A DNA stretch of 64,000 nucleotides from Sphaerisporangium perillae (GTDB taxonomy: Bacteria; Actinomycetota; Actinomycetes; Streptosporangiales; Streptosporangiaceae): contig NZ_JALLPO010000012.1 in the NCBI RefSeq assembly GCF_023276435.1, forward strand, positions 1 to 64,000, read 5' to 3'. How positions within the stretch are numbered: position 1 is the first letter of the stretch; the number at the start of each line of letters is the position of its first letter. This document shows positions 11,310 to 35,343 of the stretch, piece by piece. A model generated the notes under the pieces. That model did not search any database, was not told the DNA's origin, and saw nothing but the letters and a program-made list of their open reading frames with translations. The position numbers were made by a program, and so were the translations under genes.

Positions 11310-12434
<1,125 letters not shown>

Positions 12435-14259: not shown

Positions 14260-14290
14260 GGCGGCAGGCTCACGACGCGAAACCGGTGGC

Positions 14291-19322: not shown

Positions 19323-19339
19323 CAGGCCCCCCGACCGGA

Positions 19340-19373: not shown

Positions 19374-19544
19374 CCCTCTCACTGATTGACGCCCAACCTC
19401 CGACGGTAGTGACAGAGGACTGCGGGTGGGCGCGGATGGACCGGACGGTGCCCGGACGTCCCCGCCTGTGCCGCTCGACAACTCGAACCTGGCTGTGAGC
19501 TGGGGCTTTGTCTGCGGCTGCGTGAGCCTGCTTGGGAGCCTTGC

Positions 19545-19609
19545 ACGGGTCCGGCGCACCCCGCCCGGTCCTCGGCGGCCTGATCAACCAGTACACCAAC
19601 GCCGCCTGA
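19545..19609 (+). pseudogene. C-terminal tip of an integrase-type transposase
   Basis: The plus strand reads APRPVLGGLINQYTNAA then TGA (19607-19609), matching the RPVLGGLINEYERAA-type end of IS481/IS3-like transposases. Only about 20 codons remain. The rest of the 19374-19749 gap holds nothing recognisable. Confidence 0.5.
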
Positions 19610-19749
19610 CAAGCAAAGAAAGCCCAGCTCAGACCCAGAATCCTATTTTCGAGCAGGACAAGTCGGCCTCGCACTGATCTGCCGTCTCGGCCGAACCGCA
19701 GTCGTGGTGATCGCCTTTCGGACGGACGCGTGACGAGCTTGCCAGCCAG

Positions 19750-20790
19750 TCATCCGGTCACACCTGCCGTCAACTCTTCGGAATAGCTGAACAGCGCGGG
19801 AAGACCGCCGGTGTGAACGAACACCACGCGGTCACCTTCCGGGACGTGACCGGCCCGGCAGTAGTCCAGCAAGCCGGCGAACCCCTTGCCCGAGTAGACG
19901 GGGTCCAGCAAGATCCCTTCAGCCGCGCCAAGGCGGTAGATCGCCTCGACGGCTGCCGCGGTGGGCACGCCATAGCGCTCACCGACGTAGTCCTGCGTCG
20001 TGGTGATCCGGTCCGCGGTGATCTGGGTTGTGACGCCGAGAAGTTCCGCGGCGCCCTGCGCGAGTTCGGCGATCTGCTCCGGGCTCAGGTACGCCTCGTG
20101 CTCGGCTGTCATCGGGCAGACGCCGACGAGCCGAGTCGGAAGTCCGAGTAGCTCGCAGCCGAGCTGCAGTCCGGCGAGGGTGCTTCCCTGCGTCGCCGAG
20201 AAGATCCAGTCCGGAACGGCGTCCGGCCGCGCGCGCACAATCTCCAGCAGCGCCTGCACGTAGGCCACGGTGCCGAGCGTCAGGCTCCGAGTGGCCCCCA
20301 TTCCGACGACGTAGGGCCTGCGGCCCTGCGCCCGCAGCTCCTCGGCCAGCTCGGCCTTGCGGGCCGAGGTGCTCTGGCCGTCGTCGATCGGGAGGATCGT
20401 CGCGCCCATCAGGTGGTCGATGAGGTAGTTGCCCTGCACCGGCGAGCTCTTCTCGTCCAGCTTGGGCACCAGGTAGACGTCGAGGCCGAGCCGTGCGCAG
20501 GCCGCCGCGAGCTGGCGCGAGTGATTCGACTGAGCGGCCGAGCCCTGGATGACGCAGTCCGCCCCTGCGGCAATCGCGTCGGCGAGCATGAACTCGTGCT
20601 GGCGGACCTTGTTGCCGCCGAACGCCAGCCCGGTGCAGTCGTCGCGTTTGATGCTGATCGTCCGGCCCAGCTCGCGGGAGAGGTTCGGGCAGTCGTCCAG
20701 CGGGGTCGGCAGGTGCGCCAGCGACACCCTGGGGATGGCGTCTATGCGCTCCTGGACCTCGTCGACCGTGTAGGTGCGGACGCGCGTCAT
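19750..20790 (-). CDS. PLP-dependent ACC deaminase / D-cysteine desulfhydrase-family enzyme
   Basis: A 346-aa fold-type II PLP enzyme. The Schiff-base Lys is in GLAFGGNKVRQHE, followed by QGSAAQSNHSRQLAAA (phosphate/substrate binding) and TQGSTLAGLQLG. Family members release ammonia from 1-aminocyclopropane-1-carboxylate, D-cysteine or related small amino acids via aminoacrylate-type intermediates. Known activities in the family do not allow a choice here. It is the last gene of the 13-gene operon. Its ATG overlaps the RidA stop (ATGA), and RidA would detoxify exactly the enamine/imine products such an enzyme makes. Confidence 0.85.
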   Translation of the reverse strand: MTRVRTYTVDEVQERIDAIPRVSLAHLPTPLDDCPNLSRELGRTISIKRDDCTGLAFGGNKVRQHEFMLADAIAAGADCVIQGSAAQSNHSRQLAAACARLGLDVYLVPKLDEKSSPVQGNYLIDHLMGATILPIDDGQSTSARKAELAEELRAQGRRPYVVGMGATRSLTLGTVAYVQALLEIVRARPDAVPDWIFSATQGSTLAGLQLGCELLGLPTRLVGVCPMTAEHEAYLSPEQIAELAQGAAELLGVTTQITADRITTTQDYVGERYGVPTAAAVEAIYRLGAAEGILLDPVYSGKGFAGLLDYCRAGHVPEGDRVVFVHTGGLPALFSYSEELTAGVTG

Positions 20791-21260
20791 GCCATCTCCT
20801 TGCCTTCTCCGGACACGATCGCTTCGACCTCCACCGCCGCGTTGCCAGGCAGCCAGGCGACGCCGACCGCCGAGCGCGCGTGGCGGCCGGCGTCGCCCAG
20901 CACGTCCACGAGCAGTTGGGATGCGGCGTCGACGACCTTGGGCTGCTCGACGAAACCGTCGGCGCTCGCGACGAATCCGGTAATCTTCAGGACGCGGGTG
21001 ACGTTCTCGAGCCCGAGTTCGGTGTCGATCGCCGCGAGGAGGTTCAACGCGGCGATGCGGGCCGCCTGCTGACCCTCGTCGACGGAGAGGTCCCCGAGCC
21101 GGCCCGGGTGCTGCACGGTGCCGGCGACGATCGGCGTCTTGCCGGAGAAGAACCAGAGATCGCCCGTCCGGGTCGCGGGCTCGTACTGGTAGCGCGGCGC
21201 GGGCAGCCGCGGCAGTTCCAGTCCGAGGTCGGCGAGCCGCTGCCTGATCTGTTCGTTCAC
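20787..21260 (-). CDS. RidA (YjgF/YER057c/UK114) family protein
   Basis: A 157-aa cytoplasmic protein of the RidA family, which hydrolyses reactive enamine/imine intermediates released by PLP enzymes. The central FFSGKTPIVAG, a helix EGQQAARIAALNLLAAI, and the C-terminal ARSAVGVAWLPGNAAVEVE with the conserved Arg are visible. I chose GTG 21260, which overlaps the upstream amidohydrolase stop (GTGA); the longer open frame upstream is antisense-like noise. Placed between a PLP lyase and an amidohydrolase, it supports imine chemistry in this pathway. Confidence 0.85.
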   Translation of the reverse strand: MNEQIRQRLADLGLELPRLPAPRYQYEPATRTGDLWFFSGKTPIVAGTVQHPGRLGDLSVDEGQQAARIAALNLLAAIDTELGLENVTRVLKITGFVASADGFVEQPKVVDAASQLLVDVLGDAGRHARSAVGVAWLPGNAAVEVEAIVSGEGKEMA

Positions 21261-22531
21261 GATGTCACCTCCAGGACGGCCACCCGGCCGCCATCTATTA
21301 CCACGGCGCCGTCGCGCCATACCTGGCGGATCGGTGCGATGCGCCGCGTCGCCTCGTTGGCGAGACCGTCGAGCACCACCAGATCCGCGGCCTTGCCCAC
21401 CTCGATGCTGCCGATCTGGCCGGCCAGCCCCAGCGACTCGGCCGAGCGCAGCGTCGACATCGCGATCGCCTCGCTGTACGACAAGCCGAGCGCCTCCATC
21501 GTGCACTCCACCGACCGGCCGAACTCGCGAAACGGCGTGAACCGGACGCCCGCATCGCTCGCGACGGACATGTGCACGCCGGCCGTGCGCATGGTGCGTG
21601 CGAAGGCGAAGTCGTCGTACAGATTGCCGGTCGCGGACATGGCGTGCGCCGCGCCCAGCTCCACCGCGTCCGCGGGATCGGCGTCGGGCAGCAGCACCCG
21701 GGCGATGCCGGCCATCGTCAACGTCGCCGACACCGGGAGCCGCGCCATCTCGTCCACCAGATCAAGGTCGAGGTCGGGCGCGCCCTTCTCATCGACCCAG
21801 ATGCAGTGCTCCAGGGTGTCCACCCCGGCGGCCACGGCGCGGCGGATGCTCTCGGTGTTCAGGGCGTGGGCGGCCACCCGCCGGCCTAGCCGGTGCGCCT
21901 CCTCCACCACGACCCGCATCTCGTGCGTCTGGAATTGCGGCTGCAGCTTGTTCGAGCCACGGGTCATGTTGCCGCCGCTGGCCATCACCTTGATGACGTC
22001 CACTCCGCGCGTGCAGAGCCGGCGGGTGGCCTTGCGGATCTCGTCGACGGAGTCGGCCGCGTTGCCGCACCAATGCAGGTGCCCGCCCGTCGTGGTGATC
22101 GGCGGGCCGGCGGCGAGGATCCGCGGTCCCGGCACCCGGCCGGCGTTGACCGCATCCCGTATTTCGAGGGTGACATAGTCGATGTCGCCGCAGTCGCGCA
22201 CGGTGGTCACGCCGCCGAGCAGGCACTCCGTCGCACTACGCGCGCCGATCAACGCCAGCGCCGCCGGGGTGGAGTTCTCGACGCCGGCGCGCGTGCGTTC
22301 GTGATCGAGGTCGCAGGTGAACAGCAGGTGCACGTGCGCATCGACGAAGCCGGGGACGACCGTCGCGGTCGAGTGGTCGACGAGGCGGCCGGGGCCGGCG
22401 TCCTTGGGCAACTCGGCCGCGGTGTGCACGCCCGCGATCACGCCGTCGACGACGTGCACCACCGCGTCACGACGCAGCGGTTCGCCCGTTCCGGTGACGA
22501 GGACGCCGCAGCGGATCCAGTGCTCGGTCAC
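21257..22531 (-). CDS. Amidohydrolase-superfamily metal-dependent hydrolase
   Basis: A 424-aa member of the amidohydrolase superfamily (imidazolonepropionase/dihydroorotase-like). The metal HxH is in FVDAHVHLLF, a likely carboxylated Lys in VIKVMASGGN, His ligands in VAAHALNTES and TLEHCIWVD, and the catalytic Asp in SVASDAGVRF. Such enzymes open cyclic amides or cleave amide bonds. GTG 22531 overlaps the stop of the cysteine hydrolase (GTGA). In this operon it probably performs one of the C-N cleavages of the imported substrate; the substrate is unknown. Confidence 0.86.
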   Translation of the reverse strand: MTEHWIRCGVLVTGTGEPLRRDAVVHVVDGVIAGVHTAAELPKDAGPGRLVDHSTATVVPGFVDAHVHLLFTCDLDHERTRAGVENSTPAALALIGARSATECLLGGVTTVRDCGDIDYVTLEIRDAVNAGRVPGPRILAAGPPITTTGGHLHWCGNAADSVDEIRKATRRLCTRGVDVIKVMASGGNMTRGSNKLQPQFQTHEMRVVVEEAHRLGRRVAAHALNTESIRRAVAAGVDTLEHCIWVDEKGAPDLDLDLVDEMARLPVSATLTMAGIARVLLPDADPADAVELGAAHAMSATGNLYDDFAFARTMRTAGVHMSVASDAGVRFTPFREFGRSVECTMEALGLSYSEAIAMSTLRSAESLGLAGQIGSIEVGKAADLVVLDGLANEATRRIAPIRQVWRDGAVVIDGGRVAVLEVTS

Positions 22532-23301
22532 GCCGACGTCCCCGTCGTGTGCGCGTCGCAGGCCGCGACCCACTGCTCGCTCGTCGCGGTGTAGCCGACG
22601 TTGGTCTCGATGAACCGCACCGCGTTGGCGTCGGCCCACTTTCCGTCGCCGGTCTCGGCGTCGTCGCCGTTGGCCAGCGGCGAGGTGCCGATCGCGTCCC
22701 GCAGCGCGATCACCCGGTAGTTGCGGTACATCGCGTCGATCACCGTCGTGTGCAGGCAGATCCGGCTGTCGAAGCCGACGGTGACCAGGTTGTAGATGTC
22801 CAGGCTACGCAGCAGCGAGTCCAGTTGGGTCTCGAAGAAGCCGCTGTAGAGCTGCTTCTTCACGAGGTACTCCCCTGGCCGAGGCGCGACCACGTCGGAG
22901 TAGGCCAAGATGTCGTTCGGCTCCTGCCAGCTCTGCAGGACGTCGATGTTGTGCACGCGCAGCGACATGTTGCGCCATTCGCTGCGCTCGTTCAGCGTCG
23001 GCGACAGGTGGTTGGAGAGGTAGACAATCGGTATGCCGGCTCGGACGGCCGCCTGCTTGGCCGGGACGATGTGGTCGACGACGATCCCGCGGCTGGCCTT
23101 GGCCTGGTCGGCGTACAACGCGGGCAGGTCCGGCGACGGCGCCGGCTCATCGCGGTCGAAGCCGAGACCGTTCACGTCGACGAGCAGGAAGGCGGTCCGG
23201 CGCGGGTCGAGGTCTAGCGTCTCCTCCGTGTGGCCGAGCGGCGCCTCGACCGGGAAGGTGCGGTAGTAGCGCGCGGCCAGTTGGAGCGGGGCAGTTGTCA
23301 C
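22528..23301 (-). CDS. Cysteine hydrolase, isochorismatase superfamily
   Basis: A 257-aa isochorismatase-fold amidase, longer than the average nicotinamidase and similar in length to RutB-like ureidoacrylate amidohydrolases. The triad is intact: Asp in FLLVDVNGLGFD, Lys in LVKKQLYSGFFET, and nucleophile Cys in DSRICLHTTVIDAM. This contrasts with the Cys-less homologue at 2265-2753. GTG 23301 overlaps the preceding gene's stop. Probably deaminates or decarbamoylates an amide intermediate. Confidence 0.85.
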   Translation of the reverse strand: MTTAPLQLAARYYRTFPVEAPLGHTEETLDLDPRRTAFLLVDVNGLGFDRDEPAPSPDLPALYADQAKASRGIVVDHIVPAKQAAVRAGIPIVYLSNHLSPTLNERSEWRNMSLRVHNIDVLQSWQEPNDILAYSDVVAPRPGEYLVKKQLYSGFFETQLDSLLRSLDIYNLVTVGFDSRICLHTTVIDAMYRNYRVIALRDAIGTSPLANGDDAETGDGKWADANAVRFIETNVGYTATSEQWVAACDAHTTGTSA

Positions 23302-24152
23302 GGTTTCGACCCTTCGGTGAGTGCTGGCAGTCGGTAAATTGCGGCGGCGGTGCCGGACAGGATCTGGATACGGTCGGCGCTGCCGAGCTCGCACGCGTCG
23401 AGGACGGTGCGTGCCTGCGCGTACCCGTTCACGTCGGTCGTGTACGGGAAGTCCGAACCCCACATCAGGCGTCGCGCGCCGAACTCGGCCAGGACGGTGC
23501 GCACCCACGGCCACACGTCCTCGTGCGGGTAGGCGCGAGTCGACATCTCCGGCAGCGCGGAGAGCTTGATGTGGACATTGTCGAAGCGGGCGAGCCGCAG
23601 CAGATCGTCGGAGACCGTCCCCGGACGCTGCGGGTCAAGGTCGGGGCGGGCGAGATGGTCGATGACGATCGTCAGGTCGGGATGCGCAGCGACCCACCGG
23701 TCCACCACTGGCAGGACGGCCGGAGGGATCAAAAGGTTCGCGCTCAGCTCCAGAGAGGCGGCCGCCTTGTACAGCGGCTCGGCCGCCGCGTCGAACCAAC
23801 TCAGGTCCGGCGCGATCAGCGGAGCGAGCCGGAACCCCCGGATCGGCGCGCGCTGCACCAGCTCGCGGAGCCGGTCCACGAAACGCGGATCCACCGGGTC
23901 GGCCAAGGCGATGCCGACGAACCGGTCCGGTTGCGCCTCGAGGCAGCGCAGCAGCTGCGAGTGGTCGAATCCGTAGAGGCTCGGCTGGATGAGAACGGCC
24001 TGGGCGACCCCGGTCGCGTCCATCGCTTCCAGCAGCTGCTCGACTGGCGCCGTGAACGTCGGCGCGCTTGGGAACCGCGAGCTGCGCGGCACGCCGCTGC
24101 CGGCGGCGGCGGTGACGTGGGTGTGCGCGTCGATGATGGACGAGCCGGTCAC
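23298..24152 (-). CDS. Amidohydrolase 2-family (TIM-barrel) hydrolase
   Basis: A 284-aa TIM-barrel hydrolase of the amidohydrolase-2/lactonase group. It begins with SIIDAHTHVTAA (HxH), continues with VLIQPSLYGFDHSQL and LTIVIDHLARPD, and ends with MWGSDFPYTTDVNGY, carrying the metal/catalytic Asp. Members include 2-pyrone-4,6-dicarboxylate and sugar-lactone hydrolases. GTG 24152 overlaps the aminotransferase stop. A lactone- or lactam-opening step is plausible. Confidence 0.83.
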   Translation of the reverse strand: MTGSSIIDAHTHVTAAAGSGVPRSSRFPSAPTFTAPVEQLLEAMDATGVAQAVLIQPSLYGFDHSQLLRCLEAQPDRFVGIALADPVDPRFVDRLRELVQRAPIRGFRLAPLIAPDLSWFDAAAEPLYKAAASLELSANLLIPPAVLPVVDRWVAAHPDLTIVIDHLARPDLDPQRPGTVSDDLLRLARFDNVHIKLSALPEMSTRAYPHEDVWPWVRTVLAEFGARRLMWGSDFPYTTDVNGYAQARTVLDACELGSADRIQILSGTAAAIYRLPALTEGSKP

Positions 24153-25306
24153 TGTTGCACCTCATTCAGGACGGGCGCCAAGTGGCGCAGGAACTCCTGC
24201 ACGTCGGCGACGGTGTTGTAGATGTGCGGCGAGATGCGAACCCGGCCGTCGCGCCCCCACACACTGACACCGTGCTCGCCGAGACGGCGAGTGATCTCCG
24301 CCTCCCGCGAGGTGGCGAAGGAGACGATCGACCCGCGACGCCCGGGCTCGCGCGGCGTCAGCGGCGCCACCCCGAGGTCGGCCAGCCCTTGCATCGCCAC
24401 CGCCACCAGTTCGGCGTTATGTGACGCGATGGCCTCGACCCCGATGGACAGCACGAACTCCAGAGCGTTCTCCAGCACGTGCAGACCGAGGTAGTTGGGC
24501 ATGCCTTCCTCGAACCGGCGCGCGTCCGGGTACAGCTCGAAGCGTTCCAGCCGGTCGGCCGCGAACAGGTCGGTGACGCCCCGGTACGCGACGTACGGCG
24601 GGGCGAGTCGGTCGAGGGCGTCCGGGTTGACATAGAAGATCGCCAGGCCGTGCGCTCCGAGCAGCCACTTGTACGTCCCGGCGCAGAGGAAGTCTGCGAC
24701 ACCGGCGTCGAACGGAACCGCGCCCGCGGCTTGCACGGCGTCGACGAAAAGCAGCGCGCCGCGCTCGTGGGCTGCGGCGGCGAGCGCGGGGAGGTCTACC
24801 AGGAAGCCGTTCTCGTAGCTGACCAGGCTGGCGACGACGAGCCGCGTACGCTCGTCCATCTGGGCGGCGTAGGTCTCGGTGGGCACGAGGCCGTCCTCCC
24901 CGGTCACCACCCGCCGCTCGACGCCGAGCTCCGCCAGGTGCACGGCCGCGAACGCGGTGCTCGGGAACTCCGACTGGGCGAAGACGATGTTGTCGCCCGG
25001 CATCCAGCGGATCGTCTTGATAACCGCGTCGAGACCGCGGGAGGTGCTGGCGAGGAAGGCAACCTGCCGGCCGTCCACCGAGAGCAACTCGCCGGCCAGC
25101 GCGCGGCAGTGGGCCTCGACCTCGGCGCAGGCGTCCCGGCCGCGCGCGCCGAGGTTCTTGCGCGCGGCGTAGTCGTTCATCGCGCGTACGTGCGAGCCGA
25201 GGAACAGGCTCTCCGCCGCGCTGTTGAGGTAGACGCCGGAACCGGTCCCGGGGAACTGGTGACGAACCCGCGTGGCGAGGTCCGGCGATTGGGTCGGTGC
25301 GGTCAT
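24149..25306 (-). CDS. Class V aminotransferase-family PLP enzyme
   Basis: A 385-aa fold-type I PLP enzyme of the aminotransferase V/NifS/isopenicillin-N-epimerase group. YLNSAAESLFLG is the typical start, LLFVDAVQAAGAVP carries the cofactor Asp, and the Schiff-base Lys is in LCAGTYKWLLGAHG. RISPHIYNT near the C-terminus is characteristic. Activities range from desulfuration to transamination and epimerisation. ATG 25306 overlaps the Gfo/Idh stop (ATGA), fixing the start. Probably acts on the amine carried by the imported substrate. Confidence 0.86.
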   Translation of the reverse strand: MTAPTQSPDLATRVRHQFPGTGSGVYLNSAAESLFLGSHVRAMNDYAARKNLGARGRDACAEVEAHCRALAGELLSVDGRQVAFLASTSRGLDAVIKTIRWMPGDNIVFAQSEFPSTAFAAVHLAELGVERRVVTGEDGLVPTETYAAQMDERTRLVVASLVSYENGFLVDLPALAAAAHERGALLFVDAVQAAGAVPFDAGVADFLCAGTYKWLLGAHGLAIFYVNPDALDRLAPPYVAYRGVTDLFAADRLERFELYPDARRFEEGMPNYLGLHVLENALEFVLSIGVEAIASHNAELVAVAMQGLADLGVAPLTPREPGRRGSIVSFATSREAEITRRLGEHGVSVWGRDGRVRISPHIYNTVADVQEFLRHLAPVLNEVQQ

Positions 25307-26243
25307 GCGGTGAAGCCCTCCTGACGGATCTGGTCGTCGATCTGCTGGATCACGCGATAGGTCGGCAGCACGTCGGAGAACGACGGCCAGGAGCCGGACC
25401 GGTCGGCGATCGCACGCAGGAACGTCTGGGCCTGCGCGAACACCGCGTCCCCGAGCAGGTCGTTGGGATCGGACGCCGCCGCGGGCGAGGGTTGCCAGCC
25501 GCTGATCCGTACGGTCTCCGAACGGCCGAAGACCGACACCTCGCTCACCGGGCGCATCGCGTTGTAGGACATGGCGATCGTCGCGAGGCGGCCGGTGCGG
25601 GTCCGCAGTCCGACCGCGAGGTCCAGCGGGCGTCCGGTCTCCGGGTCCGCCGGACCGGCCAGGGCCCGGACCGACTCGATGGTGTCGTCGAGCAGCCGCA
25701 AGCTGGTGTCCACCGCGTGGGTCGTGTGGTGCCAGACGATGTCGTCGACCCAGGTGCGCCGCTCTCCCGTCCAGCCGACGTTCGAGCGGCGGTAGATCGC
25801 CGAGGTGGTCGAGATGCTGAACGGTTCGAAGTCGCCGGCGACGACCCTCGCGCGTAGTTCCGACACCACAGGGAAATGGCGCTGGGTGTGGCACGCCATC
25901 GCGATCAGATCGCCCGCCGCTTCGGCGGCGGCGGTGACCTCGGCCAGGGACAGCCCGATAGGTACCTCGCAGAGCACATGCTTCCCGCCGGACAGCGCGG
26001 CGAGAGCCTGCCGGGCGTGCTCGCCGCTGGGCGAGGCGATGACCACCGCGTCGACGTCTTCGGCGTCCACGATGCCGGCGACCGAGTCCGTCGCGCGGCC
26101 CACCGCGTGCTCCTCGGCGAACTTTCCCGCCGCCTCGGCGTCCGGGCCCATGACCGCCGCGAGGGTGCAGCCCGCTCGCCGGAACGCGCGCGCGTGCTCT
26201 ACCGCGATGGCGCCATGCCCGAGAAACCCGATCCGTGGCAGAG

Positions 26244-26247
<4 letters not shown>
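25303..26247 (-). CDS. Gfo/Idh/MocA-family oxidoreductase
   Basis: A 314-aa NAD(P)-dependent oxidoreductase: Rossmann start RIGFLGHGAIAVEHARAF, VDAVVIASPSGEHARQAL, and the catalytic-type block KHVLCEVPIGLSLAEV, where family members have an EKP motif and this one has E-V-P, lacking the Lys. DDIVWHHTTHAVD follows. Family members oxidise sugars, inositols or amino-sugars. The EKP change to EVP may alter activity. ATG 26247 overlaps the ABC ATPase stop. Presumed to oxidise or reduce an intermediate of the operon's substrate. Confidence 0.84.
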
Positions 26248-27279
<1,032 letters not shown>

Positions 27280-27287
<8 letters not shown>

Positions 27288-28335: not shown

Positions 28336-29246
28336 TTCGCACCGCCCTTTCGGTAGCTGTGTCGCCGGGTCCACGCCCTCGGGTCGAGCACGTCCCGAAG
28401 CCCGTCACCGAGGATGTTCACGCCGAGCACCGCGACGACGACGAAGGCGCCCGCGCCGATCGGCAGCCATGGCGCGTCGTACATGTACTGGCGGCCCTCG
28501 ATGAGCAACGAACCCCATGACGGCGCGGGCGGCTGCACACCCAGACCGAGAAAGCCCAGGCTCGCCTCGTCGAGGATCCCCCAGGCGAGCGAGGTGGTGA
28601 CCTGCACGACCATGATCGGCAGCACGGGTGGCAGCAGGTCCTTGACCACGACGACGATCGCCGGGAGTCCGAGCCCGCGGGAGGCCTCGACGTAGGTCTG
28701 GTCTCGTGCCGCCACCACAACGCCGCGGAAGACCCGCGAGAACTGCGGCGTGTACGCCACCGCCAGCGCCACCGTCACCGACGTGGCCGACGCGCCCAGC
28801 ATCGCGACGATGCCCAGCGCGACGACCAGCGCGGGAACCGCGAGCATCGCGTCGATGACCCGGCTGAGCACGATGTCGATGACGCCGCGCATGTAACCGG
28901 TGAGAAAGCCGATGACCGTACCGATCGCCGCCGCGATCCCGACCGCGCACGCAGAGATGATCAGCGAGGTCTGTGCGCCGACCATGGCGCGGCTGAGGAT
29001 GTCGCGGCCGAGTTCGTCGGTGCCGATCAGGTGAAGCCACTGTGGCGCGGCGAAGCGCGCCTGCAGGTTCGTCGCGTCCGCCGGGTACGGCGTCCACACC
29101 AACCCCACCACGGCGACGGCGACCACGATGAACAGGAGGGTGCCGCCGAACACGACCCGTCCGTTGAGCAGGCCGCGAGAGCGGAGCGTGCCGCGCCGCC
29201 TCTGGGCCGTGACCGGCGTGGCGGCCGACGCCGCGGGCGCGGTCAC
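28332..29246 (-). CDS. Peptide-type ABC transporter permease (DppC/OppC-like)
   Basis: A 304-aa inner-membrane permease: first TM after about residue 30 (GGTLLFIVVAVAVVGLVW), the OppC periplasmic signature GTDELGRDILSR, then four or five further TM segments. The EAA loop appears as EASRGLGLPAIVVVVKDLLP. GTG 29246 overlaps the DppB-like stop. Confidence 0.9.
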   Translation of the reverse strand: MTAPAASAATPVTAQRRRGTLRSRGLLNGRVVFGGTLLFIVVAVAVVGLVWTPYPADATNLQARFAAPQWLHLIGTDELGRDILSRAMVGAQTSLIISACAVGIAAAIGTVIGFLTGYMRGVIDIVLSRVIDAMLAVPALVVALGIVAMLGASATSVTVALAVAYTPQFSRVFRGVVVAARDQTYVEASRGLGLPAIVVVVKDLLPPVLPIMVVQVTTSLAWGILDEASLGFLGLGVQPPAPSWGSLLIEGRQYMYDAPWLPIGAGAFVVVAVLGVNILGDGLRDVLDPRAWTRRHSYRKGGAK

Positions 29247-30187
29247 AGCCGGATCCTCGGGTCGAGGGCGGCGTGCGCCAGTTCCGCCGCGAGGTTGAGC
29301 ACGACGTAGAGCACCGCGATGACCAAGATGACCGCCTGCACCATGTAGTAGTCGCGTTGGACGGCGCCTTCGATGAGCAGCCGGCTCAGGCCCGGCCAGT
29401 TGAACAGTTGTTCCACGACCACCTGGCCACCGATCAGCGCTCCGAGCTGCAGGCCTATGACCACGATGGTCGACGGCACCGCGTTGCGCGCCGCGTAACG
29501 CAGCAGCATCGTGCGTCCACGCAGGCCCTTGGCGCGCGCGTGCCGCAGGAACGGCTCGTGCTGCACTTCGACCGTCGCCGCCCGGGTCATCCGCGCGAGG
29601 TAGGGCGCGAGGCCGAGCCCCATCGCGAAGCCGGGCATCAAGCTGTCCTTGATGCTCTGCACCGGATCAACGGCGAGCGGGACGTAACCTCCCGCGGGCA
29701 GCCACCGCAGGTGCACGGCGAACACCAGGATCAGGATCGTGCCGATCCAGAACACGGGGGTCGACAGGCCGACCAGTGTGATGCCGGACAGCATCCGGTC
29801 GGCCCAGGTGTCCTTGAACGCGCCCGCGAGGAAGCCGCCCAGCCAGCCCAGGGCCACCGTGAAGATCAGTCCCGTCACGGTGAGCTGCAGCGTCGCCGGT
29901 ATGCGGTCCATCAGCACCGGCGTGATCGGCTGGCGTGTGATGAAGGAGATACCGAGGTCACCGTGGGCGAACAGGTTCGACAGCCAGTGCCAGTACTGGC
30001 TGGGAAGGGACTGATCCAGGCCCAGTTCGTGGCGTAGCTGCGCGACGAGCGCAGGAGTTCCACCCGGGCCGAGCATGCCGGCCACCGGGTCGCCAGGAAT
30101 GATCTGGATGTAGACGAACGTCAGGATGGACAACAAGAACAGCAGCGGCACCGCAAGGCAAAGCCGGTAAAGCGCGTACTTGAGCAA
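29243..30187 (-). CDS. Peptide-type ABC transporter permease (DppB/OppB-like)
   Basis: A 314-aa six-TM permease with the classic N-terminus LLKYALYRLCLAVPLLF, IIPGDPVAGMLG, the LGLDQSLPSQYWHWL block and the EAA-type loop HARAKGLRGRTMLLRYAARN. The start must be TTG 30187, because an in-frame TGA lies immediately upstream and the N-terminus aligns with the family. The 83-bp gap to the binding-protein gene contains no obvious terminator. Confidence 0.88.
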   Translation of the reverse strand: MLKYALYRLCLAVPLLFLLSILTFVYIQIIPGDPVAGMLGPGGTPALVAQLRHELGLDQSLPSQYWHWLSNLFAHGDLGISFITRQPITPVLMDRIPATLQLTVTGLIFTVALGWLGGFLAGAFKDTWADRMLSGITLVGLSTPVFWIGTILILVFAVHLRWLPAGGYVPLAVDPVQSIKDSLMPGFAMGLGLAPYLARMTRAATVEVQHEPFLRHARAKGLRGRTMLLRYAARNAVPSTIVVIGLQLGALIGGQVVVEQLFNWPGLSRLLIEGAVQRDYYMVQAVILVIAVLYVVLNLAAELAHAALDPRIRL

Positions 30188-30270
30188 TCAGATCACCGGA
30201 GTCGTTTCGCTAGCCATGAGCGGCACCGGGTGGCCGGACAGCGTTCCCGCCGACCACCCGGGCCCGCTTC

Positions 30271-31881
30271 CTAACCCAAGGTCGCCTCGATCAACGGCCG
30301 ATTCGATCCGTCGGTGCGCGCGACGTAGCCGTGCACCCGCTTCGCCAAGCCCACCACGGCGTACTGGTTGCCGGTCACGATCAGCGGCACCTGGTCCTGT
30401 ACGATCTGCTGAACCTGCGCGTAGAGCTGCTTCGCCTTGGCGAGATCGAGCGTCGCCTGCGCCTGCGCGATCAGGTCGTCCACCTGGGGATCGCACCACT
30501 TCGCCATGATGTTGGTGGCCTGTCCCTTACAGGTGAAGGCCTGGGACATCTCGTCGTCGACCGTCGCCCACTGGTTGCCCGCGTGGTACATCTGGAACTT
30601 GTTCTTCCCCGCGTCGGCATAGAACGTCGCGTCATCGTAGGCCTGAGGGGTGATCGCCGCACCGAGCGGCTTCAGGTCCGACTGGAGCAACTGGGTGTGG
30701 CAGCGCGACTGCGCCCAGTGGTTCTCGTACGGCACGGTGACAGCGAGCTTCGTCCCGTCGGCGACGCCCTTGACGCCCTGGGCCTGCCGGACACCGTCCG
30801 GCCCCATCTTCCACCCGGCCTCGTCGAGCAGCGCGCCCGCCTTGGCGAGAGCCTCGTCCTTGCTCACCCCGTACTTGTCGAACCCGGGCGTGTACGCCCA
30901 GTTGCCTTCGAAGATCAGCTCGCCGGTCGCGTCGACGCCGATGCCGTTCCAGCACGCGGTCTGCTTATCCGCACGCGGAACCATGTAGGCCACGGCCTGC
31001 CGCACCCGGACGTCGTCGAACGGCGCCTTCGTCTTGTCCAGGCCCCACATGATCACGCCAGGGGTCGGCGTCGGGTAGTTATCGATCACGCCGGCTTTCT
31101 GCAGCCGGACGGCGTCCTCGGGGGCCATCGGGAAGGTCATGTCCGCGGTGCCGGCCTGCAGCGCCGACGCGATGGTCGTACTGTCGCCACTGAACGTGTA
31201 GTTGATCGTCTTGATCTTCGGGAACCCCGTGTGCCAGTACGAGTCGTTGGCGGTGAGCGCCAGACTGCTCTTCGGCGTCCACTGCTGCAGTGACCAGGGC
31301 CCGGACGTCGCCGTCGGCTTGGTGAAGTACGACTGGCCGCCGGCGGTGACGGCCTTTTCCGACAGGATCGCGGCGTTGCCGACCCGGGCCAGCGCGTTGA
31401 GGAACACGCGGGACGGTTCCTTGAGGTTCACCTTCACCGTGGACGGGTCGACGACGTCCACCGAGTTCATGTCCGACAGCGCCGCGCCGAGCGCGGCTCC
31501 CTTCGCCGCACGCTCGAGAGAGAACTTGACGTCGTTCGCCGTGATCGCGGAGCCGTCGCTGAACTTGGCTCCGTCGCGGAGGGCGAATGTGTAGCTCGCG
31601 CCGTCGGCGCCTGACGTCCACTTCGTCGCCAGGTCAGGAACCAGGTTGCCCTTGGCGTCGTAGTCGATCAGTGTGTCGTAGATGAGCTCCATGACGCGCA
31701 GCGACGTCTGCGTCACCGCGGTGTTGGGGTCCAGGCCACTGGTGGGCTCGGCGGTGATGATGTTCAACCCCCCTGACGAGCCCGAACTCCCGCTGGACGA
31801 GCAGGCCGCCGCCGCGCCGGCGGCCAGCGCCGTCACCACAGCCATGGTCGTAGTTCGCCTAACGACGCTTCGAAGGTTCAC
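30271..31881 (-). CDS. Family 5 extracellular solute-binding lipoprotein
   Basis: A 536-aa SBP_bac_5 protein (DppA/OppA/NikA type). Lipoprotein signal with lipobox AAAACS, Cys at residue 27, then a Ser/Gly tether. Core blocks: GLDPNTAVTQTSLRVMELIYDTL, SYTFALRDGAKFSDGSAITANDVKFSLERA and FDDVRVRQAVAYMVPR. GTG 31881 has GAGGA just upstream. This family binds peptides but also opines, nickel chelates and oligosaccharides, so the ligand is open. It is the second gene of the operon, 43 bp after kdgD. Confidence 0.9.
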   Translation of the reverse strand: MNLRSVVRRTTTMAVVTALAAGAAAACSSSGSSGSSGGLNIITAEPTSGLDPNTAVTQTSLRVMELIYDTLIDYDAKGNLVPDLATKWTSGADGASYTFALRDGAKFSDGSAITANDVKFSLERAAKGAALGAALSDMNSVDVVDPSTVKVNLKEPSRVFLNALARVGNAAILSEKAVTAGGQSYFTKPTATSGPWSLQQWTPKSSLALTANDSYWHTGFPKIKTINYTFSGDSTTIASALQAGTADMTFPMAPEDAVRLQKAGVIDNYPTPTPGVIMWGLDKTKAPFDDVRVRQAVAYMVPRADKQTACWNGIGVDATGELIFEGNWAYTPGFDKYGVSKDEALAKAGALLDEAGWKMGPDGVRQAQGVKGVADGTKLAVTVPYENHWAQSRCHTQLLQSDLKPLGAAITPQAYDDATFYADAGKNKFQMYHAGNQWATVDDEMSQAFTCKGQATNIMAKWCDPQVDDLIAQAQATLDLAKAKQLYAQVQQIVQDQVPLIVTGNQYAVVGLAKRVHGYVARTDGSNRPLIEATLG

Positions 31882-31924
31882 GCTTCCTCATTTCCGCTCC
31901 GCGAGCCCAGTGGCGCAGCTGGGG

Positions 31925-32896
31925 TTAGTGTTGCCTGGTGTCCTGATCAGCAGCGATGAACGGAGAGTCGCCGGACGAACTCTCCTCGATGATCCGGCGG
32001 AGTTCCTCCAGGTGCTCTGGGGTGGGATCGACCAGCGGCGGGCGCACGCCGCCGACGTCGAGTCCCCTGAGCCGCACGCCGGCCTTCACCAGTGACACGG
32101 CGTATCCGGGAACCTTCGAGCGCAGGGCCACCAGAGGCACGAAGAAGGTGTCCAGCAGCCGCTGCACGAGCTTCACGTCCTGCGTGGTGACCGCATGGTG
32201 GAAGCGCAGTGCGACCTCGGGGGCGAAGCAGAAGACGGCGGACGAGTACAGGTGCACGCCGAGGCCCGCATACGCGGGGACGGTGACCTCTGCCGTGGGA
32301 AGTCCGTTGAAGAAGTGGAACGACTTGTCGCTACCGTCCAGCGTGGTGCGGACCGAGGAGATGATCCGCGTCATGAGCTCGACATCGCCGATGCCCTCCT
32401 TCAGCCCGATGACCGAGGGCAGCTCGGCGATCGTCGCGGCGGACTCCGGGTCGAACCGGGCGTTGCCGCGGTGGTAGACGATCACCGGTAGGTCCGTCGC
32501 GGCGGCGACGGTCTCGACGTAGCGGGCCAGTCCTCGAGGCGGCCCCTCCACCAGGTAGGGCGGCATCAGCAACAGGCCGTCGGCACCGGCCCGCGCCGCG
32601 GCGCGGGCCTGCTCGACCGCGACGCTGACCTGGCCGCCCGCGCCGGCGAACACCGGTACCTGCCCGGCCACGACTTGCACCGCCGTCTCCACCACCTGGG
32701 CCGACTCGGCGGGGCCCAACGAATGGAACTCGCCGGTGCCGCAGGCGGCGAAGACGCCGCCCGGCCCGGCGGACAGTCCGTCCTCCAGATGCTTCCGCAG
32801 GACGGGGAGGTTGAGGTCCCCGGTAGGCGAGAACGGTGTCACAGGAAAAAACAACACTCCGCTGAGTTGCGGCAAGATCCCTCCATGTGTTCTCAT
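31925..32896 (-). CDS. kdgD: 5-dehydro-4-deoxyglucarate dehydratase (DapA superfamily)
   Basis: A 323-aa class I aldolase-fold enzyme. KdgD-specific blocks are visible: LSGVLFFPVTPFSPTGD, GGVFAACGTGEFHSL, catalytic Tyr in PVIVYHRGNARFD, Schiff-base Lys in VIGLKEGIGD, LYSSAVFCFAPEVA, and GYAVSLVKAGVRLRG with VRPPLVDPT. It dehydrates and decarboxylates 5-dehydro-4-deoxy-D-glucarate to 2,5-dioxopentanoate. It is the promoter-proximal gene of the leftward operon and divergent from the IclR-dehydrogenase pair that takes its product to 2-oxoglutarate. The ATG 32896 lies inside a 16-bp dyad; a downstream TTG could be the true start. Confidence 0.85.
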   Translation of the reverse strand: MRTHGGILPQLSGVLFFPVTPFSPTGDLNLPVLRKHLEDGLSAGPGGVFAACGTGEFHSLGPAESAQVVETAVQVVAGQVPVFAGAGGQVSVAVEQARAAARAGADGLLLMPPYLVEGPPRGLARYVETVAAATDLPVIVYHRGNARFDPESAATIAELPSVIGLKEGIGDVELMTRIISSVRTTLDGSDKSFHFFNGLPTAEVTVPAYAGLGVHLYSSAVFCFAPEVALRFHHAVTTQDVKLVQRLLDTFFVPLVALRSKVPGYAVSLVKAGVRLRGLDVGGVRPPLVDPTPEHLEELRRIIEESSSGDSPFIAADQDTRQH

Positions 32897-32904
32897 ATGT
32901 GAAC
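32889..32904. promoter_or_regulatory. Inverted repeat, candidate IclR operator
   Basis: GTTCTCATATGTGAAC: fully symmetric except one mismatched pair. It covers the kdgD start codon and faces the divergent IclR gene, so occupancy would block the kdgD operon and possibly iclR transcription. IclR proteins usually bind such short dyads upstream of their targets; binding here is inferred. Confidence 0.6.
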
Positions 32905-32990
32905 CATGTTCGAGCTGCTGACCAGGTGTGCAAGAATATGGTCACTGTTCATTGCGGTCAAATGTCCGAATGATTACAGAAAGGCAACAC

Positions 32991-33812
32991 ATGTCGGAGT
33001 TCCCCCCCCTGGCCGATGATGTGCGCACGAACAGAATCAGCCGGGCGACGACCGCTGCCGGGCCCGTGAAGTCCGCTGATCGCACGATCGACGTGCTCGA
33101 GCTGCTCGCCGGCGCACCGCGCCGGCTCACCCTCAGCGAGATCCATCGCGAACTTGGAGTACCGAAGTCGAGCCTGCACAACCTGCTGCAGACGCTCGTC
33201 TCCCGCTCCTGGCTGGAAACCGACGAGCGGAACTCCACCTACGCGATCGGGCTGCGCGCGCTACGCGCCGGCGCCTCCTACCTCGATCGCGACCCGGTGA
33301 TCGAGGCCGCAGGGCCCCTGCTGTCCCAAATGCGCAACGAGCTCAACGAGACAGTGCACCTGGCGCGGCTCGACGGGTCTGACATCGTCTACCTCGCGAG
33401 CCGCGAGTCCGCTCATCACCTCCGCAGCAGCTCCCGCATCGGACGCCGCCTGCCCGCTCACGCCACCGCCCTCGGCAAGGCACTGCTCGCCGTCCGCAGC
33501 GACGAGGAGGTGGCCACGCTGCTGCCGAAGGACCTCGAGCGGTTGACCCCCGACACCGTCACCGACCTGGAGACGCTCATCGGGGAACTGAACCAGGCGC
33601 GACGAGACGGATACAGCTTCGAACAAGCGCAGAACACGCCGGGCCTCGGCTGCTTCGCCGTGGCCGTGCCCGGACGACAGCCCGCGATCGACGCGCTGAG
33701 TTGCTCCGTCCCCCTGGTGCGCCTCATCGACGAACACCGGCCGCAGATCGTCTCCGCACTCGTGCACGCCGCCGAGGAGCTGGGGCACATCGCACGACGG
33801 CAGGCACGGTGA
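32991..33812 (+). CDS. IclR-family transcriptional regulator
   Basis: A 273-aa regulator: N-terminal winged helix (SADRTIDVLELLA, RLTLSEIHRELGVPKSSLHNLLQTL) and C-terminal IclR effector domain (NETVHLARLDGSDIVYL, GRRLPAHATALGKALLA, DGYSFEQAQNTPGLGCFAV). ATG 32991 is chosen because AAAGG precedes it; upstream ATGs at 32970 and 32928 are possible. IclR members often control sugar-acid and aromatic catabolism. Its place between kdgD and the semialdehyde dehydrogenase makes it the pathway regulator. Confidence 0.88.
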   Translation: MSEFPPLADDVRTNRISRATTAAGPVKSADRTIDVLELLAGAPRRLTLSEIHRELGVPKSSLHNLLQTLVSRSWLETDERNSTYAIGLRALRAGASYLDRDPVIEAAGPLLSQMRNELNETVHLARLDGSDIVYLASRESAHHLRSSSRIGRRLPAHATALGKALLAVRSDEEVATLLPKDLERLTPDTVTDLETLIGELNQARRDGYSFEQAQNTPGLGCFAVAVPGRQPAIDALSCSVPLVRLIDEHRPQIVSALVHAAEELGHIARRQAR

Positions 33813-33840
33813 GTTGACCCCTACCCCGAACAGGAGCCCG

Positions 33841-35343
33841 ATGACCCAGGACACTCAACTGGAACCGCTGTTCAGCTTCGATCCGCACACCGGCCGGCGG
33901 GTGTACGACCCGGTGGCGCAGACCACCTCCGCCGAACTCGCCGCGACGGTCGAGCGCGCCGCCCTCGCCGATGCGACATGGGCACAGACGCCGCGGAGGC
34001 AACGCGCGTCCTGTCTCGAAGCGATCGCCGCCGCACTGGACGCCGCGGCGCCCGGCCTCGTCGACACCGCGATGGCCGAATCAGGCCTACCCTCCGCGCG
34101 GCTCACAGGCGAGGTGAGCCGCACCACCGGCCAGCTGCGGATGTTCGCCGACGTGATCCGCGACGGCGGCTATCTCGGCGCGATCATCTGTCCGCACGAC
34201 GCAGCACGCAACCAGCCCGATGTGCGCCGCGTGCTGCGTCCGATCGGGCCGGTCGGCGTCTTCAGCGCGTCCAACTTTCCTTTCGCCTTCTCGGTCGCCG
34301 GTGGTGATACCGCCTCCGCGTTGGCCGCCGGCAGCGCCGTCGTCGTCAAGGCGCACGAGGGGCATCCGCGCACGTCGGCACAGGTAGCCGCTGTGGTACG
34401 CCAGGCGCTCCACGATGCCGGCGCGCCAACCGACATCCTGCAGGTCGTGTACGGCAAGTCCGCCGGGAGCGAGCTGGTGCGGCATCCAGCCATTCGCGCG
34501 GTCGGATTCACCGGCTCGCTCGCCGGCGGGCGGGCACTGTTCGACATCGCCTCCGGCCGTCCGGACCCCATCCCGTTCTTCGGCGAGCTGGGGAGCATCA
34601 ACCCAGTCGTCGTGCTCCCCTCCGCCGCGCAGCTACGGCGCACGGAACTGGCGGACGGCTACGCTGCCTCGCTTACCTTGGGCTCGGGTCAATTCTGCAC
34701 AAACCCCGGCGTCATCTTCGTGCCGGACGATGCCGCGTTGCTGACCGCGATCGCCGATGCGGTCGGGGCCACCACCGTAGGGCCGCTGCTGACCGAACGG
34801 ATCCACGACGGGTTCCAGGCCGCAGTGACCGACGAAGTGTGGGCATCCCTGCCGCTCCTGGCGAGCGGAACGTCCGACGGCGCATGGAGCGTCCCGGCGC
34901 AGATCCGCCGGGCATCGCTGGACCAGTTCCACAGCGCACGCGACATCCTCACCGAGGAGCGCTTCGGTCCGGCCGGTCTCGTCGTGACGTACTCGGACGC
35001 GTCGCAGCTGCTGCCGGTGCTCACGCAGCTCCCGGGCAGCCTGACGGCCTCGGTGCACGCAGAAGACGGTGACGCAGAGCTTGCCGCGCCGATCGCAGAG
35101 GCGCTCTCGGCCAAAGTAGGACGGCTCATCTGGAACGGCTGGCCGACTGGTGTCGCGGTAAGCTGGGCGATGCATCACGGCGGGCCGTGGCCAGCGAGCA
35201 CCGCGGCGTCGCACACATCCGTCGGCGCTACCGCAATCGCGCGCTGGCTGCGACCAATCGCCTACCAGGACTGGCCACAGTCCCTGTTGCCCGAGGAACT
35301 CCTCGACGACAACCCAACCGGCGTGCTGCAACTGCGCCGGTGA
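33841..35343 (+). CDS. 2,5-dioxovalerate (alpha-ketoglutarate semialdehyde) dehydrogenase, ALDH family
   Basis: A 500-aa NAD(P)-dependent aldehyde dehydrogenase. The nucleophile Cys is in LGSGQFCTNPGV and the general-base Glu in FFGELGSINPVVVLP; VFSASNFPFAFSVAGGDTASALAAGSAVVVKAHEGHP is split over typical cofactor loops (residues about 140-180). These blocks are those of KGSADH enzymes acting after KdgD. It is 28 bp downstream of iclR with AGGAG before ATG 33841, so the two are co-transcribed. Product: 2-oxoglutarate, entering the TCA cycle. Confidence 0.85.
   Translation: MTQDTQLEPLFSFDPHTGRRVYDPVAQTTSAELAATVERAALADATWAQTPRRQRASCLEAIAAALDAAAPGLVDTAMAESGLPSARLTGEVSRTTGQLRMFADVIRDGGYLGAIICPHDAARNQPDVRRVLRPIGPVGVFSASNFPFAFSVAGGDTASALAAGSAVVVKAHEGHPRTSAQVAAVVRQALHDAGAPTDILQVVYGKSAGSELVRHPAIRAVGFTGSLAGGRALFDIASGRPDPIPFFGELGSINPVVVLPSAAQLRRTELADGYAASLTLGSGQFCTNPGVIFVPDDAALLTAIADAVGATTVGPLLTERIHDGFQAAVTDEVWASLPLLASGTSDGAWSVPAQIRRASLDQFHSARDILTEERFGPAGLVVTYSDASQLLPVLTQLPGSLTASVHAEDGDAELAAPIAEALSAKVGRLIWNGWPTGVAVSWAMHHGGPWPASTAASHTSVGATAIARWLRPIAYQDWPQSLLPEELLDDNPTGVLQLRR

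Follow-up and report, generated by a model that had tools for sequence, protein, structure and literature searches.

The first 64,000 nucleotides of contig NZ_JALLPO010000012.1 of the actinomycete Sphaerisporangium perillae (hereinafter, the window) carry, between positions 19750 and 35343, a cluster of 15 genes that we tentatively read as encoding an oxidative route, without phosphorylation, by which an amide-bearing amino-hexuronic acid or something closely related would be degraded. With somewhat greater reserve, we suggest that this would be an undescribed route of amino-hexuronate catabolism in which a Gfo/Idh/MocA-family enzyme of the PmdC type serves as the uronate C1 dehydrogenase, a fold-type-II pyridoxal 5'-phosphate (PLP) lyase together with a RidA-family protein replaces the aldarate dehydratase by converting a 2-amino-2-deoxy-aldarate to 5-keto-4-deoxyglucarate, and members of several amidase families feed amide-bearing uronates into the route. 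Chance is no explanation for the grouping of these genes: homologues of all 15 form a single block in a second genome. An earlier, sequence-only reading of this DNA had proposed that a nitrogen-containing sugar acid is imported, hydrolysed, deaminated and channelled to 2-oxoglutarate; this is largely supported by the 15-gene set, the pair of enzymes resembling PmdC and LigI, the pairing of RidA with the lyase and the lack of GudD and GarD matches in the host genome, and is now made specific as a PmdC-type dehydrogenase with a lactonase, a PLP lyase with RidA, KdgD and a semialdehyde dehydrogenase. As for the substrate, the order of the steps and every activity, we infer them from family, residue and neighborhood evidence.

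In the proposed pathway, an oligopeptide-type ATP-binding cassette (ABC) importer would take up the amide-bearing amino-hexuronate, and CysH, AH1 or both would cleave its amide bonds. Acting on C1 of the uronic acid, Gfo would then oxidise the cyclic hemiacetal and so form a lactone, a type of reaction suggested by homology and conserved residues, and AH2 would open the lactone to the 2-amino-2-deoxy-aldarate. ACCD would eliminate the beta-hydroxyl and the amine in one step, and RidA would hydrolyse the enamine/imine to 5-keto-4-deoxyglucarate. The last two reactions would be those known for the respective families, namely dehydration and decarboxylation of 5-keto-4-deoxyglucarate to 2-oxoglutarate semialdehyde by KdgD and conversion of the semialdehyde to 2-oxoglutarate by the divergently encoded dehydrogenase. 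The genes, with their best family matches, are:

19750..20790, minus strand: ACCD, putative fold-type-II PLP lyase of the D-cysteine desulfhydrase/1-aminocyclopropane-1-carboxylate (ACC) deaminase family (PALP, 158 bits)
20787..21260, minus strand: RidA-family enamine/imine hydrolase (PF14588, 70 bits; PF01042, 58.5 bits)
21257..22531, minus strand: AH1, metal-dependent amidohydrolase of the Xaa-Pro dipeptidase/carboxypeptidase type (PF01979, 152.7 bits)
22528..23301, minus strand: CysH, isochorismatase-fold cysteine hydrolase (PF00857, 68 bits)
23298..24152, minus strand: AH2, amidohydrolase-2 of the 2-pyrone-4,6-dicarboxylate (PDC) hydrolase group (PF04909, 152.6 bits)
24149..25306, minus strand: AT5, class V (fold type I) PLP enzyme (PF00266, 132.6 bits)
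25303..26247, minus strand: Gfo, Gfo/Idh/MocA-family, putative cyclic-hemiacetal dehydrogenase of the PmdC/LigC type (best profile match, PmdC)
26244..27287, minus strand: ABC transporter ATPase 2, oligopeptide type (PF00005, 116.5 bits; PF08352, 54.1 bits)
27280..28335, minus strand: ABC transporter ATPase 1, oligopeptide type (PF00005, 97.9 bits; PF08352, 58.7 bits)
28332..29246, minus strand: ABC permease 2 (PF00528, 84.8 bits)
29243..30187, minus strand: ABC permease 1, TTG start (PF00528, 117.7 bits; PF19300, 68.3 bits)
30271..31881, minus strand: solute-binding lipoprotein (SBP), SBP family 5, SBP_bac_5 (PF00496, 248 bits)
31925..32896, minus strand: KdgD, 5-keto-4-deoxyglucarate dehydratase/decarboxylase, assigned at the subfamily level (PRK03620, 417.8 bits)
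32890..32903, no strand assigned: tentative candidate operator TTCTCATATGTGAA (by-eye pattern TTCNCN4GTGAA) in the kdgD-iclR spacer
32928..33812, plus strand: IclR-family regulator, with the ATG at 32991 the likelier start (IclR_C, 134.5 bits; HTH_IclR, 65.9 bits)
33814..35343, plus strand: NADP-type aldehyde dehydrogenase, with the ATG at 33841 a possible start (PF00171, 174 bits)

The 13 leftward genes (19750-32896) and the two rightward ones (32928-35343) of the sequence-only reading were confirmed by open reading frames, codon-position composition and family matches. A codon-usage gene caller yields the same 15 genes, an agreement that is not independent because the caller was trained on the same genes. 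The leftward order is kdgD, SBP, permease 1, permease 2, ATPase 1, ATPase 2, Gfo, AT5, AH2, CysH, AH1, RidA and ACCD; divergently from kdgD run iclR and then the dehydrogenase, with 1 bp between the iclR stop and the dehydrogenase start. With the start codons chosen here, adjoining genes overlap at 10 of the 12 leftward junctions (by 8 bp at ATPase 1/ATPase 2 and by 4 bp at the other nine), which bears out the overlaps noted earlier from the permeases on; the only gaps separate kdgD from SBP (about 43 bp) and SBP from permease 1 (83 bp). To judge from the coordinates, this arrangement fits a single predicted transcript. Some starts are unsure, the gene caller favoring 32857 for kdgD, 31845 for SBP, 32991 for iclR and 33841 for the dehydrogenase. 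A single 829-amino-acid open reading frame at 24149-26638 was rejected: it is the AT5 frame running through the neighboring Gfo gene, so two genes are present.

Enzymes of the proposed pathway

When a five-row profile of Gfo was compared with solved proteins, PmdC came first with 219.6 bits and the second protein scored 101.7 bits; PmdC also ranks first, by both Foldseek and VIA-align, for the AlphaFold2 model of Gfo (mean predicted local distance difference test score, pLDDT, 81.4), the two proteins sharing 24-25% identity. According to the published account, PmdC converts the cyclic hemiacetal of 4-carboxy-2-hydroxymuconate-6-semialdehyde (CHMS) to a lactone, mutants in H177, H178 or H181 lose 83-98% of the activity, D172 contacts H177, R157 and R168 bind, in a docked model, the carboxylate on C6, the carbon beside the ring oxygen, and Phe155 reportedly stacks on the CHMS ring and Arg126 holds the second CHMS carboxylate (PMC11489326). 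The residues R157, R168, D172, H177, H178 and H181 of PmdC correspond to R153, R164, D168, H173, H174 and H177 of the window Gfo, identical in all five aligned homologues, so that six of the seven published active-site residues that were checked are retained; this mapping was drawn from a motif common to both proteins, R-x-W-x-D-x3-W-H-H-x2-H-x2-D, with an offset that stays at 4, and not from a printed alignment to PmdC, which is a point against it. The residue alignments of Gfo, AH2 and CysH each comprise five rows, with the L011 sequence left out of all three and the L009 sequence also out of those of Gfo and AH2. By our own comparison, a pyranuronic acid would be arranged like CHMS, with a hemiacetal carbon, the ring oxygen and a carboxyl-bearing carbon.

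In the profile search with AH2, PDC hydrolases occupy ranks 1 and 3-5 (best match 2ffi, 130 bits), and H10, H12, H166 and D234 are retained in all five aligned homologues. The closeness of Gfo to PmdC and the grouping of AH2 with PDC hydrolases are most simply explained by a lactone-forming dehydrogenase and its lactonase; Gfo is, accordingly in kind only, proposed to be a uronate C1 dehydrogenase that yields a lactone and AH2 an aldarolactone hydrolase, both with putative substrates. No uronate dehydrogenase of the Udh family (short-chain dehydrogenase/reductase, SDR) is encoded among the 15 genes, and a Gfo/Idh enzyme stands in its place.

Between the lactone and KdgD, the oxidative hexuronate pathway requires an aldarate dehydratase or Gci, a part that the PLP lyase and RidA probably take over here. 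Family scans detected neither an aldarate dehydratase nor Gci in the window cluster or in the homologous block of the second genome (L021, see below), and the glucarate dehydratase GudD (TIGR03247) and galactarate dehydratase GarD (TIGR03248) had no match at E<=0.001 in the host genome, which is 99.28% complete; each of these models was positive in 5 of 14 control genomes, and other proteins of the mandelate racemase/muconate lactonizing enzyme (MR/MLE) superfamily were not searched genome-wide.

ACCD has S300 and T327 where the ACC deaminase 1rqx has E and L, and neither E nor L occurs at these positions in any of 82 aligned rows. We take the Glu295/Leu322 pair, as opposed to a Ser/Thr pair, to separate ACC deaminase from D-cysteine desulfhydrase activity; S300 and T327 thus point to a D-amino-acid lyase type, and ACC deaminase was rejected as the identity of ACCD, so of the earlier double name, ACC-deaminase/D-cysteine-desulfhydrase-like, the second half stands and the first does not. 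ACCD is here proposed to act as a dehydrative deaminase of a 2-amino-2-deoxy sugar di-acid. In the phylogenetic tree, the ACCD proteins of the window, L018 and L021 comprise a clade with 100/99 support, and those of L042 and L044 form a separate pair (98/88).

In RidA, the HAR motif and the first Glu of E(V/L/I)(E/D), which we take to be the active-site one, are retained in all four aligned sequences. Imine hydrolysis by RidA is tied to a conserved Arg and Glu in the literature (PMC4433059). RidA is found beside ACCD in four clusters (the window, L021, L042 and L044), each with neighbors of sugar-acid type. The Aerophobetes run (L042:46-4731) encodes, in the order given, RidA, ACCD, an HpaI/GarL-type protein (191 and 163 bits against cut-offs of 369 and 407), a KDPG/KHG aldolase above cut-off (PRK06552, 246 versus 238 bits) and an amidohydrolase with the best model PRK09061 (226 bits, cut-off 340), the same model as for a type B protein described below; as a whole, it has the appearance of a compact pathway for amino-sugar acids that parallels ong. 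In the Stahlbacteria run (L044:420-5260), RidA and then ACCD are followed by a member of the SMP-30/gluconolactonase family (251 bits), an enzyme of the fucose-isomerase type and an ABC ATPase that matches sugar-transporter models best, though below cut-off.

At the end of the route, KdgD passes the PRK03620 subfamily cut-off (417.8 versus 278 bits), has 4ur7 as its best solved relative and is the sole copy above that cut-off in the host genome. The dehydrogenase, with the best solved relatives 1eyy (386 bits) and 3v4c (375 bits) and a 42% identical homologue in the L021 block, is proposed, by family, to be a 2-oxoglutarate semialdehyde dehydrogenase (KGSADH).

On the nitrogen side, the importer matches the oligopeptide type, with an SBP of family 5, two binding-protein-dependent (BPD) permeases and two ATPases that combine ABC_tran and oligo_HPY domains; the AlphaFold2 model of the SBP was too poor (mean pLDDT 54.6) and was not used. 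The profile of CysH matches a cysteine hydrolase (3irv), N-carbamoylsarcosine amidase, RutB and biuret hydrolase, and D42, K149 and C182, presumably the catalytic residues, are retained in all five aligned homologues. The best solved relatives of AH1 are the carboxypeptidase Cc2672 and prolidases, its top model is an Xaa-Pro dipeptidase (218 bits, cut-off 500), and H66, H68, K181, H222, H242 and D326, which we assume to be the metal ligands, are identical in L018. We propose that CysH is an amidase and AH1 an amide hydrolase. The presence of several amidase families around one core, with nitrilase- and creatininase-family proteins added in type C and L021, suggests amide-bearing substrates, and N-acylated amino-uronic acids, uronamides or uronyl-amino acids are suggested as candidates.

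AT5 has the fold of the class V aminotransferase that the sequence-only reading named, a name that denotes the fold only, and may be a lyase or an epimerase. Its best solved relatives are cysteine desulfurases, enzymes with the catalytic cysteine in the C-terminal part; AT5 has cysteines only at positions 60, 67 and 208 of 385, and no cysteine follows residue 85 in either of the two relatives aligned. Without a C-terminal cysteine, AT5 is unlikely to be a cysteine desulfurase, and this identity was rejected.

Distribution of the gene set

The second complete set, L021 (VGAE01000015.1, a metagenome-assembled genome of Actinomycetota with 46% G+C), came from a contig scan with a two-row ACCD alignment that covered the best 80 of 588 confirmed loci. 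All 15 homologues lie in one rearranged block of about 21 kb, at 29.9-53.5% identity. The gene order and strands differ from those in the window, but the runs SBP-permease 1-permease 2-ATPase 1-ATPase 2 and RidA-ACCD and the divergent kdgD-iclR pair are retained; for a set that stays together despite such rearrangement, at 30-54% identity, a pathway is the simplest explanation. The other 79 loci of the scan carry 1 to 5 of the 15 genes, a count that short contigs depress (46 of the 80 loci are at least 15 kb long), and seven further loci (L009-L012 and L018-L020) carry 2 to 9. The finding that the earlier reading named as support, one order of the 13 genes shared by many genomes, is not borne out as worded: one other complete set was found, in a different order. 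The full AT5 of the L021 contig lies at its left end (L114), and the flanks are, by eye, a membrane protein and an ABC exporter. The block further encodes an M20 hydrolase, members of the creatininase and nitrilase families and a second AH2.

Within the same block, a diaminopropionate-ammonia-lyase-type enzyme (L021:16821-18005; 302.4 bits, cut-off 276) may be a hint that the substrates are 2,3-diamino-uronic acids. At L021:1903-3849, the homologues of permease 2 and ATPase 1 share one open frame of 648 amino acids, as if fused.

Partial versions occur in five further genomes. A CysH search of 200 genomes of the family at E<=1e-40 returned five genomes, the host itself and four others; the sample included 10 further genomes of the host's genus, none of which had a match. 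Type B (L009-L012), compared for layout in all four loci, matches 9 of the 15 genes: SBP, two permeases, two ATPases, CysH, AH2, Gfo and a protein of the dihydrodipicolinate synthase (DHDPS) family. Family scans of type B were made on L010 alone, where the DHDPS-family protein, judged by its score, is no KdgD (122.6 versus 278 bits) and is accompanied by a tartronate-semialdehyde-reductase-like enzyme (226 bits, cut-off 341), an MR/MLE protein (galactonate dehydratase, 278 bits, cut-off 311), a PRK09061-type amidohydrolase (198 bits, cut-off 340) and GntR. The MR/MLE, reductase and DHDPS-family proteins together would make another aldarate ending.

Type C (L018) emerged from an ACCD search of 394 genomes of the class at E<=1e-100, which found the host and genome G368 only. 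It combines ACCD (62% identity) and AH1 (53%) with Gfo, AH2, KdgD, an MR/MLE protein, a nitrilase-family protein, an SDR (top model Azf, 55.1 bits, cut-off 400), a creatininase-family protein, labelled through homology to an L021 protein that scores 210 bits against PF02633, and GntR, labelled by eye. Only the host copy was found for AH1 in 345 genomes of the order (E<=1e-80) and for ACCD in 396 genomes of the phylum (E<=1e-85), and only G368 for ACCD in 22 genomes of the G368 family (E<=1e-90), all three thresholds being strict enough to miss relatives as distant as L021.

An AT5 search of the 394 class genomes at E<=1e-60 returned the host copy and those of G315 and G414 (L019 and L020; 37-38% identity). 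We rejected these loci as versions of the pathway: they are different clusters in which, at 60 bits, only AT5 and IclR of the 15 are matched. The L020 cluster (6830-20000), with several Gfo/Idh, creatininase- and M20-type proteins, the AT5 relative, a BhcC-like PLP protein and a fragment of a PRK09061-type amidohydrolase, is possibly another N-acyl amino-sugar pathway. Adjoining the AT5 relative is a 387-amino-acid protein (L020:11896-13059) for which neither Pfam nor NCBIfam gave a match at the thresholds applied; a protein similar to it by eye is encoded at 13075-14265 of L019.

Alternative explanations, regulation and neighboring genes

Several observations, along with the motif-based residue mapping, weigh against the amino-hexuronate pathway. 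In Gfo, the PmdC Phe155 is retained in none of the five homologues (I, Q, Q, L and M), and the invariant Arg R123 could match PmdC Arg126, implying a second acidic substituent on the ring. AT5 is not accounted for by the pathway, and the 15 genes include no glycosidase, polysaccharide lyase or classical deacetylase. KdgD scores below the TIGR03249 equivalog cut-off (317.8 versus 373.95 bits), and the dehydrogenase falls far below the KGSADH-type models among the matches listed (DioxValDhHalo, 108.7 bits, cut-off 750; GucD, 87.9 bits, cut-off 770), so that the KdgD-KGSADH ending proposed earlier holds for the KdgD subfamily and, in the case of the dehydrogenase, by family only. The contig stretches of 77 of the 80 loci in the ACCD scan (the best 80 of 588 confirmed) contain no RidA homologue, L018 has ACCD without RidA, and type B has a match to neither; an amino-aldarate may therefore not be what the shared importer and amidase encounter. 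In the ong pathway, moreover, the lyase alone made its product, 2-keto-3-deoxygluconate (KDG), without RidA (PMC9537276).

An alternative that we consider unlikely, yet deserving of serious attention, is a plain, amide-linked hexuronate: a uronamide or uronyl-peptide would be imported, CysH and AH1 would free the hexuronate, Gfo and AH2 would convert it to an aldarate and an unlinked MR/MLE dehydratase would feed KdgD, with ACCD and RidA merely disposing of a released D-amino acid. This would agree with the type B combination of importer, CysH, Gfo and AH2 with an MR/MLE protein (scanned on L010) and no ACCD or RidA match, and with the carboxypeptidase and prolidases closest to AH1; furthermore, an MR/MLE acid-sugar-dehydratase-like protein encoded at 6772-7869 of the window (top model L-talarate/galactarate dehydratase, TalGalacDh, 113 bits, cut-off 500) could feed KdgD instead of ACCD and RidA, which is another point against the amino-hexuronate pathway. 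However, no MR/MLE or aldarate dehydratase is present in the window cluster or the L021 block, GudD and GarD have no match in the genome, and elsewhere RidA-ACCD pairs adjoin sugar-acid genes.

It is improbable that the operon combines two unrelated functions, peptide import with amide breakdown and a separate glucarate/galactarate branch through KdgD and KGSADH: an SBP of family 5 with oligo_HPY ATPases is typical of peptide importers, but all 15 genes stay together, rearranged, in L021, and neither GudD nor GarD has a match in the genome. Slightly more improbable is the breakdown of an aromatic or N-heterocyclic compound via a pyrone-dicarboxylate-like lactone, with Gfo and AH2 as true homologues of LigC/PmdC and LigI; although PmdC and PDC hydrolases are indeed their closest solved relatives, no ring-cleaving oxygenase is found among the 15 genes or the scanned L021 extras, KdgD and the dehydrogenase would be left unexplained, and Phe155 is not retained.

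The scores of ACCD bear on a further explanation, to which we assign little credence, namely a sulfo-amino acid or thiol substrate, with ACCD acting as a C-S lyase, for instance a D-cysteate sulfo-lyase, and AT5 as a cysteine-type enzyme. The best NCBIfam model of ACCD is CuyA (285.9 bits), which makes a C-S substrate possible and thereby also counts against an amino-aldarate, the S300/T327 pair is of the D-cysteine desulfhydrase type, and the closest solved relatives of AT5 are cysteine desulfurases. Against this, ACCD stays below the CuyA cut-off of 450, as it does below those of TIGR01275 (247 bits, cut-off 289) and PRK03910.1-3 (229 bits, cut-off 429), AT5 lacks the C-terminal cysteine, no sulfite or sulfonate gene is among the 15, and KdgD would remain unexplained. 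Catabolism of hydroxyproline peptides, a pathway that also ends in a DHDPS-family deaminase and KGSADH and that the prolidase-like AH1 with its Xaa-Pro dipeptidase top model might recall, is highly improbable and was rejected, given that the DHDPS-family protein scores above the KdgD-subfamily cut-off and that neither hydroxyproline epimerase nor D-hydroxyproline dehydrogenase is encoded among the 15 genes.

Regulation of the proposed amino-hexuronate pathway by IclR (BhcR model, 172 bits, below the cut-off of 350), acting on both transcription units through the candidate operator, is hinted at by the pattern TTCNCN4GTGAA. The candidate overlaps the start of kdgD if this is the ATG at 32896, and the pattern recurs in L021, both in the kdgD-iclR spacer and roughly 90 bp upstream of the dehydrogenase. 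In the window it is found twice (0.15 expected by chance), once in the spacer and once as a 14-base match at 57135; L021 has three listed matches at two distinct sites (0.27 expected). Because the pattern was built by eye from the two spacers, the third site alone is independent. Genome-wide, the 16-base form of the pattern is present at 18 distinct places, with 0 for the reversed-pattern control, and the matches in L009, L011 and L012 fall inside MR/MLE genes; for these reasons, we treat the pattern as only a hint. One promoter-like site, located in the kdgD-iclR spacer, was found against 0.8 expected, and six terminator-like sites against 4.7.

Convergent with the end of the operon is a gene (14673-19322) for a 1549-amino-acid protein with ThuA, glucose/sorbosone dehydrogenase, PKD and CBM6 domains and two F5/8 type C stretches. 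Elsewhere in the window, a second catabolic-looking cluster (43781-55538) includes GntR, a CaiB-type CoA-transferase, a threonate-dehydrogenase-like protein, an importer with SBP, ATPase and permease, a second GntR, an enoyl-CoA hydratase family member and an amidohydrolase-like protein, several of these labels being assigned by eye.

Comparison with known systems

Amino-uronic acids and uronamides are found in bacterial surface polysaccharides and in some antibiotics. Among the matches listed from the open literature, with subscription papers mostly outside the scope, we found neither a catabolic route for these compounds nor a published pathway of the kind proposed here. If true, the proposal would define a pathway that can be tested, extend the D-cysteine desulfhydrase family by a new reaction and the PmdC-type dehydrogenases by a new class of substrates, and explain why RidA adjoins an ACCD-type lyase in some lineages; it could also correct names that relatives may receive from automatic annotation (ACC deaminase, inositol dehydrogenase, cysteine desulfurase).

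Among the known enzymes, ACCD belongs to the CuyA/D-cysteine desulfhydrase/ACC deaminase family, with which it shares the PLP lysine and the Ser/Thr pair of the D-cysteine desulfhydrase type, but it lies below the cut-off of every NCBIfam model that it matches and in a clade of its own with L018 and L021. Gfo and AH2 recall PmdC/LigC and LigI of protocatechuate 4,5-cleavage, a pair consisting likewise of a hemiacetal dehydrogenase and a lactonase, and six PmdC residues are retained; the differences are the low identity (24-25%), the absence of Phe155 and a cluster with no ring-cleavage gene.

At the level of the pathway, there is a close likeness in outline to the oxidative hexuronate pathway of Agrobacterium and Pseudomonas (Udh, Gli/lactonase, and Gci or an aldarate dehydratase), with which the window route would share the lactone-forming oxidation of the uronate, the lactone step and the KdgD-KGSADH end (PMC6353982); it would thus be a variation on the bacterial use of pectin-type sugar acids. 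The window differs in having a PmdC-type Gfo/Idh enzyme instead of Udh and, by our proposal, a PLP lyase with RidA instead of Gci or a dehydratase, and in the addition of amide hydrolases and an oligopeptide-type importer. Gli is itself an amidohydrolase.

An experimentally tested parallel for the nitrogen-removing step is the ong (oxidative chitin) pathway, in which an N-acyl amino-sugar acid is handled like a D-amino acid, by a deacylase, a PLP deaminase and RidA: 2-acetamido-2-deoxygluconate (GlcNAc1A) is deacetylated and then deaminated to KDG by a PLP enzyme that suffices in vitro, whereas growth requires the RidA protein OngD (PMC9537276). By contrast with the window, the PLP enzyme OngC is of fold type III and ACCD of fold type II, the transporters and the regulator are unlike those of the window, and of the ong set (fold-type-III PLP deaminase, KdgK, D-aminoacylase and RidA) only RidA is found among the 15 genes; furthermore, the ong product is phosphorylated and the di-acid of the window would pass through KdgD. 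Conceivably, an elimination of the ong type, if it took place on a 2-amino-2-deoxy-aldarate, would give 5-keto-4-deoxyglucarate, that is, the substrate of KdgD.

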